NCBI RefSeq assembly: GCF_004209755.1
Contig: NZ_CP035913.1
Span: forward strand, 3,286,001 to 3,350,000
Reading direction: 5' to 3'
Source: Pseudoduganella lutea
GTDB lineage: Bacteria; Pseudomonadota; Gammaproteobacteria; Burkholderiales; Burkholderiaceae_D
Length of the DNA stretch: 64,000 nt
Shown one piece after another: positions 31,976 to 35,796 of the stretch. The notes under the pieces were generated by a model that worked only from the letters and a program-made list of their open reading frames with translations, searched no databases and was not told where the DNA came from. The stretch's first letter is position 1. Each line of letters starts with the position of its first letter. The translations under genes and the position numbers were made by a program.

Positions 31976-32007
31976 ACCCGCTTTCGTCCCGCATTTCATT
32001 GCCAGCC

Positions 32008-33087
32008 ATGCCACAATTCGCCCCGCTCCAGAACGACACCTTCCTGCGTGCGCTCCTGCGCCAGCCGACCGATTACACCCCCGTGTGGCTGATGCGCCAG
32101 GCGGGCCGTTACTTGCCGGAATACAAGGCCACGCGGGCAAAAGCCGGCTCGTTCATGGGCCTTGCCACGAATCCCGATCTCGCCACGGAAGTCACGCTGC
32201 AGCCGATCGACCGCTACCCGCTGGATGCGGCAATCCTGTTTTCCGACATCCTGACGGTGCCCGACGCCATGGGCCTGGGCCTGTATTTCGTCGAGGGCGA
32301 AGGACCGAAATTCGAACGCCCCTTGCGCACCGAAGCCGACGTGCAGGCATTGCGCCTGCCCGAGCCCGGCTCGCTCGACTACGTCTTCAAGGCCGTGACA
32401 CAGATCCGCACCACGCTGAACGGCCGCGTGCCGCTGATCGGCTTTTCCGGCAGTCCCTGGACGCTGGCGTGCTACATGGTGGAAGGGCAGGGCTCGCGCG
32501 AGTTCCACACGATCAAGAAAATGCTCTACAGCCGGCCAGACCTGATGCACCACATCCTCGATGTGAACGCGCGCGCGGTGGCCGAATACCTGAATGCGCA
32601 GATCGACGCCGGCGCCCAGGCGGTGATGATCTTCGATTCGTGGGGCGGCGCGCTGGCCGACGGGGCCTATCAACAGTTTTCGCTGCACTACATGCAGCGG
32701 GTGGTCGCGCAGCTCAAGCGCGAGCATGACGGCGCGCGGATCCCGGCGATCGTCTTCACGAAAGGCGGCGCGCACTGGGCGGAAGAAATCGCCGCCATCG
32801 GTGCCGATGCGATCGGGCTGGACTGGACGGCCGATATCGGCAAGGTACGTGCCGCGGTGGGCGACAAGGTCGCGCTGCAAGGCAATCTCGACCCGGCCAT
32901 CCTGTTTGCCGGCGCCGAGCAGATCCAGGCCGAAGTGCGCCGCGTGCTCGATGCCTATGGCCCCCATACGACCGGCCATGTCTTCAACCTGGGCCACGGA
33001 ATTTCCCAGTTCACGCCGCCCGAATCGGTGGCCGTGATGGTCGATACGGTGCATTCGCACAGCCGCAAGCTGCGTATCGGCGGCTGA
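32008..33087 (+). CDS. hemE: Uroporphyrinogen decarboxylase
   Basis: HemE removes four carboxyl groups from uroporphyrinogen III to give coproporphyrinogen III in haem synthesis. The 359-aa length and motifs [30 protein letters not shown] and [13 protein letters not shown] are typical. ATG at 32008 is preferred over an in-frame TTG three codons upstream. The gene is followed by the 675-base DnaA-box region. Confidence 0.98.
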
Positions 33088-33762
33088 CGCCCGCAAATCC
33101 TGCGGCCATGGTGTGGAAACGGTTCACTTCCGCCGCGGCAAAGGGCTATCAGGCGCCTGACCCGCCATGGCCTGCACAGGCAAACCCGACTTATGCACAA
33201 TTTTTCTGATTGCCAAAGCAAAAGGCAATCAGGAAAGCGTGGTAGTGGAAAAAAATCCAAGTGCTTGATTTGATTGGGTAAAATCCATCCTGAAAGTTAG
33301 GATGCTTTGCGATAAGTAAACCTTATCCCCCGCTCTGGCCGAGGTTGCGACATCATTCTCCACAAAGTTATCCACAAAAACTGTGGAAAAAAGGCAAAAG
33401 CGCTTAGTAAACCGCGACTTACCTTTTGTTCTGCTGCATTGCACGAATTTTAGGCAGGCAATAAGTTTTACTACAGCCGAGTCTGCTTGGTAAAATAACC
33501 GGTTCCGCGTGCCCCGGCGATCCCTTTCTGGGCCGATCAGGCAGATGAGCGAAGGCGACTTATGCACAGCAAGATTCCAAACTCGCGCGATTTCGCCGCT
33601 CTCGGAAGCTATTTTCAAGTCATTGATTTTAAAAAGAAAAAATTGTGAAATTTGGCGTTTCCATGCCTCATTATTGGGTTCGGAATGCGAGTTTCCGGCA
33701 ATTACGGGTCCAATGTCCACAAAGTTATCCCCAGAATTTGTGGATAGTTCGCGGGTAATTTG
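33088..33762. other. 675-base non-coding region with DnaA boxes
   Basis: No convincing gene lies here. Perfect DnaA boxes of form TTATNCACA occur at 33191-33199, 33368-33376 and 33560-33568, all on the plus strand. One-mismatch boxes are TTCTCCACA at 33356-33364, the minus-strand TTTTCCACA at 33390-33382, TTATCCCCA at 33725-33733 and the minus-strand CTATCCACA at 33747-33739. An AT-rich tract (about 33610-33655) lies between the third perfect box and the last pair. This resembles a replication origin, a DnaA-titration site or a DnaA-controlled promoter for priA. The dnaA, dnaN, rpmH or gidA genes usually found at origins are not in the window. Confidence 0.7.
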
Positions 33763-35796
33763 ATGCCTCATTGCATACTTCGTATCGCCCTCGACACGCC
33801 ACTGCATGCCGTGTTCGATTACCGCTGGTCTGGCGCGGAAGCGGAACGGCCGCAGGTGGGTCACCTGGCCCTGGTGCCGTTCGGCACGCGCGAAGTGGTG
33901 GGCATCATCGTGGCCATCAGCGAAGCGTCCGAAGTCGCCGAGGAAAAACTCAAGGATGCGCTGGCGGTGCGCACGCAACTGGCACCGCTGCCGGCGCAAT
34001 GGCTGGCACTGGCCGGCTTTGCGGCCGAGTATTACCAGCGCCCGCTGGGCGAAGTGGCGCTGCCGGGCGTCCCCAAGAATCTGCGGCTGTCCACCACCGT
34101 GGCGCTGGACCGGGCGATCAAGAAGCTGGCAAAGACAACCATCGGGCATGACCCGGTACCCGTCGGCATGCCGGTCCTGAATGCTGAACAGCAACAGGCG
34201 GCCGATGCGATCGGCGGCGCCGAAGGGTTCGCGCCGATGCTGCTGTATGGCGTGACGGGCAGCGGCAAGACGGAGGTCTACCTGCAAGCGTGCGCCCAGG
34301 TACTGGCGCGCGAGCCGGACGGTCAGATCCTCGTGCTCGTGCCTGAAATTAACCTGACGCCTCAGCTGGAAGGAAACATTCGTGCCCGTTTCCCCGGCGT
34401 CATGCTGGCCACCCTGCACAGCAGCCTTGCCGAAGGCGAGCGCATGCTGCACTGGCTGGCCGCCCACCAGGGCCAGGCCCGCATCGTGCTCGGCACGCGG
34501 CTGGCGATCCTCGCCTCGCTGCCGCAATTGAAGCTGATCGTCATCGACGAGGAGCACGACCCATCGTACAAGCAGCAGGAAGGCCTGCGCTATTCGGCGC
34601 GCGACCTGGCTGTGTGGCGTGCCTGGCAATTGAAGATTCCTGTCGTGCTGGGCTCGGCCACGCCATCGCTGGAAAGCTGGCACCACGCGCAATCGGGCCG
34701 CTACCGCAAGCTGGAACTGCGGGAACGGGCCGTGAAGCAGGCCGTGCTGCCGGCCGTCAAGCTCGTCAACATGGAACATGACAAGCCCGATGGCGGCGTG
34801 ACGATGCAGTTGAAGGCCGCACTGCGCCAGCGGCTCGAACGGGGCGAGCAATCGCTGCTGTTCCTGAACCGGCGCGGCTATGCCCCGGTGATCTGCTGCG
34901 AGGCCTGCGGCTGGGTCAGCGATTGCCAGCGCTGCACGGCATTCATGGTGCTGCACAAGGGCGAGTTCAAGCTGCGTTGCCACCATTGCAGCCTGGAGAT
35001 GCGCATCCCGCGCCATTGCCCCACGTGCGGCAACGTCGACCTGCAACCGCTGGGCCGCGGCACCCAGCGCATCGAGGAAAACCTGCGCGAGTGGTTCCCC
35101 GCGGCGCGCATCCTGCGCATCGATGCCGACTCCACCCGCCGCAAGGGCAGTGCCCAGGAAGCATTCGACACCGTGCACCGCGGCGACGTCGACATCCTGA
35201 TCGGCACGCAAATGGTCGCCAAGGGGCATGACTTCAAGAAGCTCACCCTGGTCGGCATCCTGAACCCGGATACGGCGTTGTTCTCGCAGGATTACCGCGC
35301 CAGCGAGCGGCTGTTCGCGCAACTGATGCAGGTGGCGGGCCGTGCCGGCCGCACCGCGCAGGCCGAAGGCGGCAGCGCCAGCGAGGTGCTGGTGCAAACG
35401 CGTTATCCGGAGCACCCGCTGTACGGCGCGCTGGTCAGGCACGATTACGACCGCTTCGCCGGCGCATTGCTGGCCGAGCGCGGGCAGGCCGGCCTGCCGC
35501 CTTACCTGTACCAGGCGATGCTGCGCGCCGAGGCACCGGAACTGGCGAAGGCGATCGGCTTCCTGCAGGCGGCGCGCGACTGCATGCAGGCGGACACCAT
35601 TGCGGAAGGCATCACGATCAATGAACCGATCCCGATGAGCATGACACGGGTCTACAACGTGGACCGCGCGCAATTGCTGGTGGAATCGCCCTCGCGGCCT
35701 GCCTTGCAGGCGTTCCTGAAGGAGTGGATGGCCCGGTTGCGCGACATGAAGTCGCGTGTCAAATGGTCGCTGGAAGTGGATCCGGTCGATATCTGA
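33763..35796 (+). CDS. priA: Primosomal replication helicase PriA
   Basis: PriA restarts stalled replication forks by loading the replicative helicase. The 677-aa protein shows an N-terminal DNA-binding domain, Walker A GVTGSGKTEVY, the DEEHD box (VIDEEHDPSYKQQEGLRYS) and two zinc-binding cysteine groups (CEACGWVSDCQRC and CHHCSLEMRIPRHCPTCG). The ATG at 33763 follows an in-frame TTG directly. A DnaA-box pair lies 16-38 bases upstream, which would place DnaA at or next to its promoter. Confidence 0.97.
   Translation: MPHCILRIALDTPLHAVFDYRWSGAEAERPQVGHLALVPFGTREVVGIIVAISEASEVAEEKLKDALAVRTQLAPLPAQWLALAGFAAEYYQRPLGEVALPGVPKNLRLSTTVALDRAIKKLAKTTIGHDPVPVGMPVLNAEQQQAADAIGGAEGFAPMLLYGVTGSGKTEVYLQACAQVLAREPDGQILVLVPEINLTPQLEGNIRARFPGVMLATLHSSLAEGERMLHWLAAHQGQARIVLGTRLAILASLPQLKLIVIDEEHDPSYKQQEGLRYSARDLAVWRAWQLKIPVVLGSATPSLESWHHAQSGRYRKLELRERAVKQAVLPAVKLVNMEHDKPDGGVTMQLKAALRQRLERGEQSLLFLNRRGYAPVICCEACGWVSDCQRCTAFMVLHKGEFKLRCHHCSLEMRIPRHCPTCGNVDLQPLGRGTQRIEENLREWFPAARILRIDADSTRRKGSAQEAFDTVHRGDVDILIGTQMVAKGHDFKKLTLVGILNPDTALFSQDYRASERLFAQLMQVAGRAGRTAQAEGGSASEVLVQTRYPEHPLYGALVRHDYDRFAGALLAERGQAGLPPYLYQAMLRAEAPELAKAIGFLQAARDCMQADTIAEGITINEPIPMSMTRVYNVDRAQLLVESPSRPALQAFLKEWMARLRDMKSRVKWSLEVDPVDI

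Follow-up and report, generated by a model that had tools for sequence, protein, structure and literature searches.

The 675-bp gap between hemE and priA of Pseudoduganella lutea probably holds a tandem DnaA-IHF control element of the class to which DARS and datA of Escherichia coli belong, and is probably not the chromosomal origin oriC, judging by its box arrangement and conservation. The gap lies within the window, the whole 64,000-nucleotide stretch of DNA analyzed here (genome positions 3286001-3350000), and has a GC content of 47.9%, compared with 64.3% in the window. It is organized as two tandem modules (33191-33390 and 33560-33747; Table 1), each composed of a DnaA box, an exact IHF-consensus site 63-74 bp further on and, about 90 bp later, a core with the layout box-N3-box-N5-inverted box. 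The core of module 2 is weaker than that of module 1 (4 versus 1 triplet mismatches). An earlier note on this DNA had named hemE and priA as the flanking genes, with which the Pfam matches agree, and had described three perfect boxes in one direction, at least four one-mismatch boxes, an AT-rich tract toward the priA end and a box pair 16-38 bases ahead of the priA start, all of which we recovered. New beyond that description are the two exact IHF-consensus sites, the modular repeat and the two-mismatch box at 33713. A minus-strand open frame of 814 codons (window 33229-35673) runs opposite priA and much of the gap; it is likely a chance frame in GC-rich DNA.

Table 1. The hemE-priA gap of P. 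lutea and its flanking genes (window coordinates; mismatches are to the DnaA-box consensus).
Feature	Position	Strand	Remarks
hemE, uroporphyrinogen decarboxylase	31999..33087	+	Pfam URO-D 9e-138
Module 1 upstream DnaA box TTATGCACA, perfect	33191..33199	+	position of datA box 2
Module 1 predicted IHF site, exact consensus (CAAGTGCTTGATT on +)	33258..33270	-	
Module 1 core box a TTCTCCACA, 1 mismatch	33356..33364	+	position of DARS box III / datA box 3
Module 1 core box b TTATCCACA, perfect	33368..33376	+	position of DARS box II
Module 1 inverted core box TTTTCCACA, 1 mismatch	33382..33390	-	position of DARS box I
Module 2 upstream DnaA box TTATGCACA, perfect	33560..33568	+	
AT-rich tract, 17.5% GC	33610..33649	.	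overlaps second IHF site
Module 2 predicted IHF site, exact consensus (CAAGTCATTGATT on +)	33616..33628	-	
Module 2 weak core box ATGTCCACA, 2 mismatches	33713..33721	+	
Module 2 core box TTATCCCCA, 1 mismatch	33725..33733	+	
Module 2 inverted core box CTATCCACA, 1 mismatch	33739..33747	-	
priA, primosomal helicase	33763..35796	+	Pfam PriA_3primeBD, PriA_C, Zn_ribbon_PriA

Perfect DnaA boxes (TTATNCACA) number 33 in the whole genome (7,504,849 bp, or 7.50 Mb, in one contig), which is one per ~227 kb, and 3 of these 33 lie in the gap. Three in 675 bp is therefore far from chance (Poisson about 4e-9, uncorrected for the choice of this gap), and when the whole window was shuffled 100 times, three perfect boxes arose in 1 shuffle. 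Together, the seven boxes with 0-1 mismatch form the densest group within 280 kb of contiguous sequence from this genome.

The arrangement is conserved across the family. A PriA match was present in all 145 family genomes drawn, and we examined 50 stretches upstream of priA (30 loci returned by searches, with the P. lutea genome among them, and 20 chosen for diversity). hemE adjoins priA in 45 of the 50. Among the remaining five (L041, L078, L079, L080, and L085), four retain boxes near priA, none of them perfect in L078, and the family genome at L041 has neither a DnaA box nor hemE in the 1500 bp before priA. Boxes are kept in every one of the 45 hemE-priA gaps, each with at least four boxes of 0-1 mismatch and at least one perfect box. 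An exact IHF consensus occurs in 44 of the 45 gaps, with 73 sites against 2.0 expected from mononucleotide shuffles, and the orientation is the same in 72 of the 73. These 72 sites anchor 72 modules in 43 of the 45 gaps, which represent 15 genera; the count of 72 overstates the evidence because related genomes are not independent. All 72 modules contain an upstream plus-oriented box (0-1 mismatch) as well as a plus-oriented box near +90 or +102, with both of the latter present in 66. An inverted box near +116 (0-1 mismatch) is found in 49 of the 72, as it is in both window modules, and the inverted slot has three or more mismatches in 20. Control slots placed 45 nt upstream held boxes with 0-1 mismatch in 0, 4, and 0 of the 72 modules. 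Counted by IHF sites, the gaps contain no module (2 gaps), one (15), two (27), or three (1). The offsets of the upstream box cluster at -63/-64, -73 to -75, or -82 to -85 (70 of 73; the others are -66, -76, and -94). Successive clusters are thus about one helical turn apart (R, the mean vector length, is 0.90 at 10.5 bp). On the strength of this conservation and fixed geometry, the prediction that the gap is a genuine DnaA-binding control locus is supported.

The many predicted high-affinity boxes would also suit a passive DnaA titration cluster, an option raised in the earlier note, and priA lies 26-55 kb from the parS-linked oriC-like locus described below in the genomes that look least rearranged. 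However, titration needs no fixed geometry, IHF sites, or helical phasing, and the fixed box-IHF-box geometry suggests a built complex rather than a passive sink. Titration may thus be part of the function, but as the whole explanation we consider it improbable.

We compared the modules with the E. coli K-12 stretches containing datA, the mutH region with DARS2, oriC, and DARS1. Excerpts of the E. coli literature describe DARS as a core of three DnaA boxes, with box I opposite to boxes II and III and a spacing common to DARS1 and DARS2, and datA as box 2, an IHF site, and box 3 in one direction at set spacing (PMC5742627, PMC8682772, PMC10380432). According to the same excerpts, IHF bending joins DnaA molecules at datA and DARS2, head-to-head DnaA on DARS boxes I and II leads to ADP release, and head-to-tail DnaA on datA boxes 2 and 3 leads to ATP hydrolysis (PMC5742627, PMC8682772, PMC10380432). 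The gap shares with DARS1 and DARS2 the three-box core, its N3/N5 spacing, and its relative orientation: the triplet at 33356-33390 has 1 mismatch in all, compared with 3 in DARS2 (core upstream of mutH) and 2 in DARS1 (upstream of uvrB). When we scored this layout (box-N3-box-N5-inverted box) by its total mismatches, the sole match within 3 mismatches in control family DNA was the window gap. A triplet within 4 mismatches was found in 25 of the 45 gaps, versus 1 of 30 oriC-like loci and 0 of 28 dnaA loci, in a scan that required the middle box to end NCAC before the last A and that loses gaps with TTATCAACA; the best full triplet exceeds 4 mismatches in 20 of the 45 gaps. As in DARS2, the IHF site is on the box III side of the core, but the IHF-core distances, computed by hand, are 80/92/106 in DARS2 and 90/102/116 here, a difference of 10 bp, or about one helical turn. 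Beyond the IHF site the gap has an extra direct DnaA box, whereas DARS2 has Fis sites there, as stated in an excerpt of PMC4245941. Furthermore, the gap modules are in tandem and beside priA, unlike DARS1 and DARS2, which lie beside uvrB and mutH.

The upstream arm of the modules resembles datA. A detector that requires an exact IHF site with boxes of 0-1 mismatch both upstream and downstream has a single hit in the window, at module 1 (offsets -74/+91); module 2 escapes it because its first core box has 2 mismatches. Within 2.41 Mb of sampled family DNA (overlaps counted), in which the window's own was the only hemE-priA gap, the detector fired at that gap alone. Of four E. coli pieces (datA, the mutH region with DARS2, oriC, and a uvrB-moaA stretch without DARS1) it found only datA, at -72/+90, so that box 2, the orientation of the IHF site, and the direction of box 3 agree with the gap, and the spacing does so to within 2 bp. 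The two differ downstream, as datA has an inverted box at +102 where the modules have a direct box, followed by an inverted one near +116. They also differ in neighborhood (glyVXY-queG for datA, priA for the gap). By eye, no box-like 9-mer lies 12 bp before 33191 or 33560, where a counterpart of the low-affinity datA box 7 (next to box 2) would be placed.

We propose that a bend introduced into the spacer by IHF would bring DnaA at the upstream box into contact with DnaA at the core; the upstream-box offsets, being helically phased, support a loop of this kind. The most likely outcome would be ADP release from DnaA, that is, DARS2-like reactivation, given that DARS1 and DARS2 share this three-box core geometry. 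This DARS-type activity carries the larger share of our confidence in the class and is, taken singly, a tentative assignment. The main alternative within the class is datA-type activity, in which ATP hydrolysis would inactivate DnaA, since the upstream arm, absent at that place in E. coli DARS2, matches datA and the upstream box is constant; the 20 of 72 modules with three or more mismatches in the inverted slot could only be of this type. It takes the smaller share and is possible, if doubtful, as an assignment of its own. A more speculative and rather unlikely proposal is that the module is an older bifunctional DnaA switch, in which an IHF-gated loop would join a datA-type arm to a DARS-type core. 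If so, it would carry out either ATP hydrolysis on DnaA or ADP exchange depending on the state of the cell cycle, would occur in one to three copies retained ahead of priA across Beta- and Gammaproteobacteria, and E. coli datA and DARS2 would each represent one half of the older module after it had split.

To describe how far the DARS/datA-like arrangement extends, we scanned a sequence collection with the pattern TTGAT N82-96 CCACA N3 TTATCCACA, which matched at least 115 stretches, 80 of them listed; because the pattern was derived from the element itself, its matches speak to spread and not to frequency. Among the 80 listed loci, 43 have an exact IHF site and an upstream box, 22 of them with an inverted box as well. 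By hand count, 19 of the 80 have the pattern upstream of priA at a distance of up to about 450 bp, and 14 of these 19 have hemE on the other side. Four of these priA-linked loci are from Duganella, Janthinobacterium (twice), and Noviherbaspirillum, which we take to belong to the window's family. The other 15 are outside the close relatives and include Comamonas, Pelomonas, Methylibium, Polynucleobacter, Lampropedia, Paucibacter, a Rhodocyclaceae MAG, Stenotrophomonas, Frateuria, and a Chromatiales MAG, so that the priA-linked loci among the 80 listed span Beta- and some Gammaproteobacteria. The best triplet is within 4 mismatches in 12 of the 19 and above 4 in 7. The rest of the 80 have mixed neighbors, and some of these loci are probably chance matches, given that Clostridia and Nostoc occur among them. 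We also scanned 32 of the 80 for tRNA genes, which were present in 2. A search of a plasmid collection with the gap returned no DNA match, and the hemE and priA matches in that collection are far relatives.

Two groups of loci in the scan have other recurrent neighbors, named by eye from translations. In eight (L236, L240, L241, L255, L269, L272, L313, and L314), from Paraburkholderia and Comamonadaceae-like records, the pattern lies beside an xseA-like gene (exodeoxyribonuclease VII large subunit), mostly with an lpxK-, exbB-, or exbD-like gene opposite; an exact IHF consensus is present in 3 of the 8 and an upstream box in 0 of the 8. Two Paraburkholderia/Burkholderia records (L257 and L306) have a similar pattern with an upstream box and an inexact IHF consensus beside a ComM/YifB-type Mg-chelatase ATPase-like gene.

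The earlier note had further suggested that DnaA controls priA. The wide link to priA agrees with this, and one could extend it to a reading in which the gap is mainly a DnaA- and IHF-controlled promoter region of priA, setting restart capacity, with no role in the DnaA nucleotide cycle: priA is the neighbor in those 19 of the 80 listed loci, and many genera have no more than about 70 bp between the end of the last module and priA. Yet the distance between the last module and priA varies (e.g. -38, -102, and -178) while the internal spacing is fixed, which argues that promoter control is not the main constraint, and related patterns occur at other genes. We therefore regard a purely promoter-related function as quite improbable.

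A further reading, and the first that the earlier note had listed, is that the gap is the chromosomal origin, in which case the parS-linked locus would be an accessory DnaA site. The position of Caulobacter oriC next to hemE, which had been cited as a parallel, is an analogy only. The gap shares DnaA boxes, IHF sites, and AT-rich DNA with E. coli oriC, and its density of boxes and AT-rich tract fit an origin. However, the R1-IHF spacing and the convergent R1/R4 layout of E. coli oriC are absent from the gap and are found at a different locus. The corresponding pattern (TGTGGATAA N146-153 TTATCCACA) occurs in 101 of the 145 family genomes, with 1-3 strict matches in each of the 101 and 0 in a reversed control. 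At 30 loci, 110 strand-wise matches represent 55 modules, and in 51 of the 110 an IHF-like site with 0-1 mismatch lies at +27 relative to the first box, the place at which E. coli oriC has one with 2 mismatches. In P. lutea this locus (3046597-3047226) is 0.27 Mb from the gap, consists of tandem modules, and lies ~11 kb from three parS sites (3035695-3035838), which have mnmG beside them; in E. coli terms it would be a duplicated oriC core. parS sites were found in 14 of 14 family genomes searched, with the oriC-like locus 6-12 kb away in the 8 genomes for which both positions are available. The proximity to parS and the E. coli R1-IHF spacing make this locus a better oriC candidate than the gap. 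Moreover, the DARS/datA-like pattern also precedes priA in Stenotrophomonas and Frateuria, whose oriC is at dnaA. By description, the oric1 region of Burkholderia cenocepacia is similar in having two DnaA-box groups in one origin region, the exact origin being left open by its authors, and differs in that the second group is near nucleotide 1 and the GC-skew minimum (excerpt of PMC4948915).

The polarity of the chromosomes gives a mixed picture. Whole-genome GC skew, proposed in the earlier note as a way to locate the origin, is weak in P. lutea and has no clear minimum, so we used KOPS and parS instead. The KOPS-like 8-mer (GGGCAGGG) was picked for strand bias in self-drawn arms of family genome G024 and of P. 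lutea, which makes its use slightly circular. In P. lutea the best switch (3.12-3.24 Mb, 8-mer) is at neither the gap nor the oriC-like locus. The losses relative to this switch are 10.2 log units for the gap, 17.9 for the oriC-like locus, and 30.6 for dnaA, which places the gap ahead of the oriC-like locus by 7.7 (8-mer) or 5.4 (7-mer) log units and ahead of dnaA by 20. G037 likewise favors the gap, which in this genome is located at 107 kb, with the parS-linked locus following at 363 kb; of the first 100 of the 367 plus-strand sites, 1 lies in 0-107 kb, 19 in 107-363 kb, and 80 in 363-1472 kb, so that the plus sites, the only ones considered, start just after the gap and continue unchanged through the oriC-like locus. 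GC skew in six 10-kb pieces of this genome shows no switch at the gap. The best switch in G001 (5.70-5.72 Mb) is 25-45 kb from the gap, although all three candidates tie with the 8-mer and the gap scores slightly worst with the 7-mer. G114 leans slightly toward the gap, with the 7-mer only. Against an origin in the gap, the best switch of G020 (0.06-0.30 Mb) leaves the gap inside the left arm, and the best range of G024 (0.36-0.60 Mb) contains dnaA and excludes the gap; the GC skew of G024 turns in the interval 268-350 kb, beside the parS-linked locus, which is at 278 kb. An origin at priA found no support in two genomes with hemE apart from priA (G057 and G086); the minus KOPS sites of G086 continue at least about 50 kb past priA. 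Taken together, an origin in the gap seems unlikely to us.

An origin at dnaA was rejected. For 17 of the 28 dnaA loci, 500 bp or more of upstream sequence was available; these 17 have 0-2 perfect boxes within 700 bp, and KOPS polarity in P. lutea disfavors dnaA most; that of G024 is compatible with it. As a separate observation, the KOPS switch, the parS-linked locus, and dnaA do not coincide in P. lutea, G037, G020, and G024, and their arrangement differs within one family; inversions around the origin would be a likely cause of the conflict between genomes. We also noted a sharp reversal of GGGCAGGG orientation in G057 (C1:1379812-1382030, at 1.380-1.382 Mb), a likely dif position.

Excerpts of earlier reports differ in the range that they give for related elements: DARS1- and DARS2-like sequences are described as conserved in many proteobacteria (PMC10380432), DARS2 as present in beta- or gammaproteobacteria proximal to E. 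coli (PMC5742627), and the DARS2 core as limited to gammaproteobacteria near E. coli (PMC4245941). None of the titles and abstract openings that we searched names a DnaA element between hemE and priA, and the literature listings searched contained neither the position before priA, nor tandem repeats, nor the combination of a datA-like arm with a DARS-like core. The gap element may thus be a variant of the DARS/datA kind, a putative member of either family by its layout. It also calls for caution, in that the densest cluster of DnaA boxes need not equal the origin. The elements of the DnaA nucleotide cycle have been worked out mainly in E. coli, and a compact, conserved element before priA would offer a ready system for studying how DnaA is reset in Betaproteobacteria. 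Such an element could be used to test whether DARS and datA share a common ancestry and whether the restart of replication is coupled to the initiation cycle.
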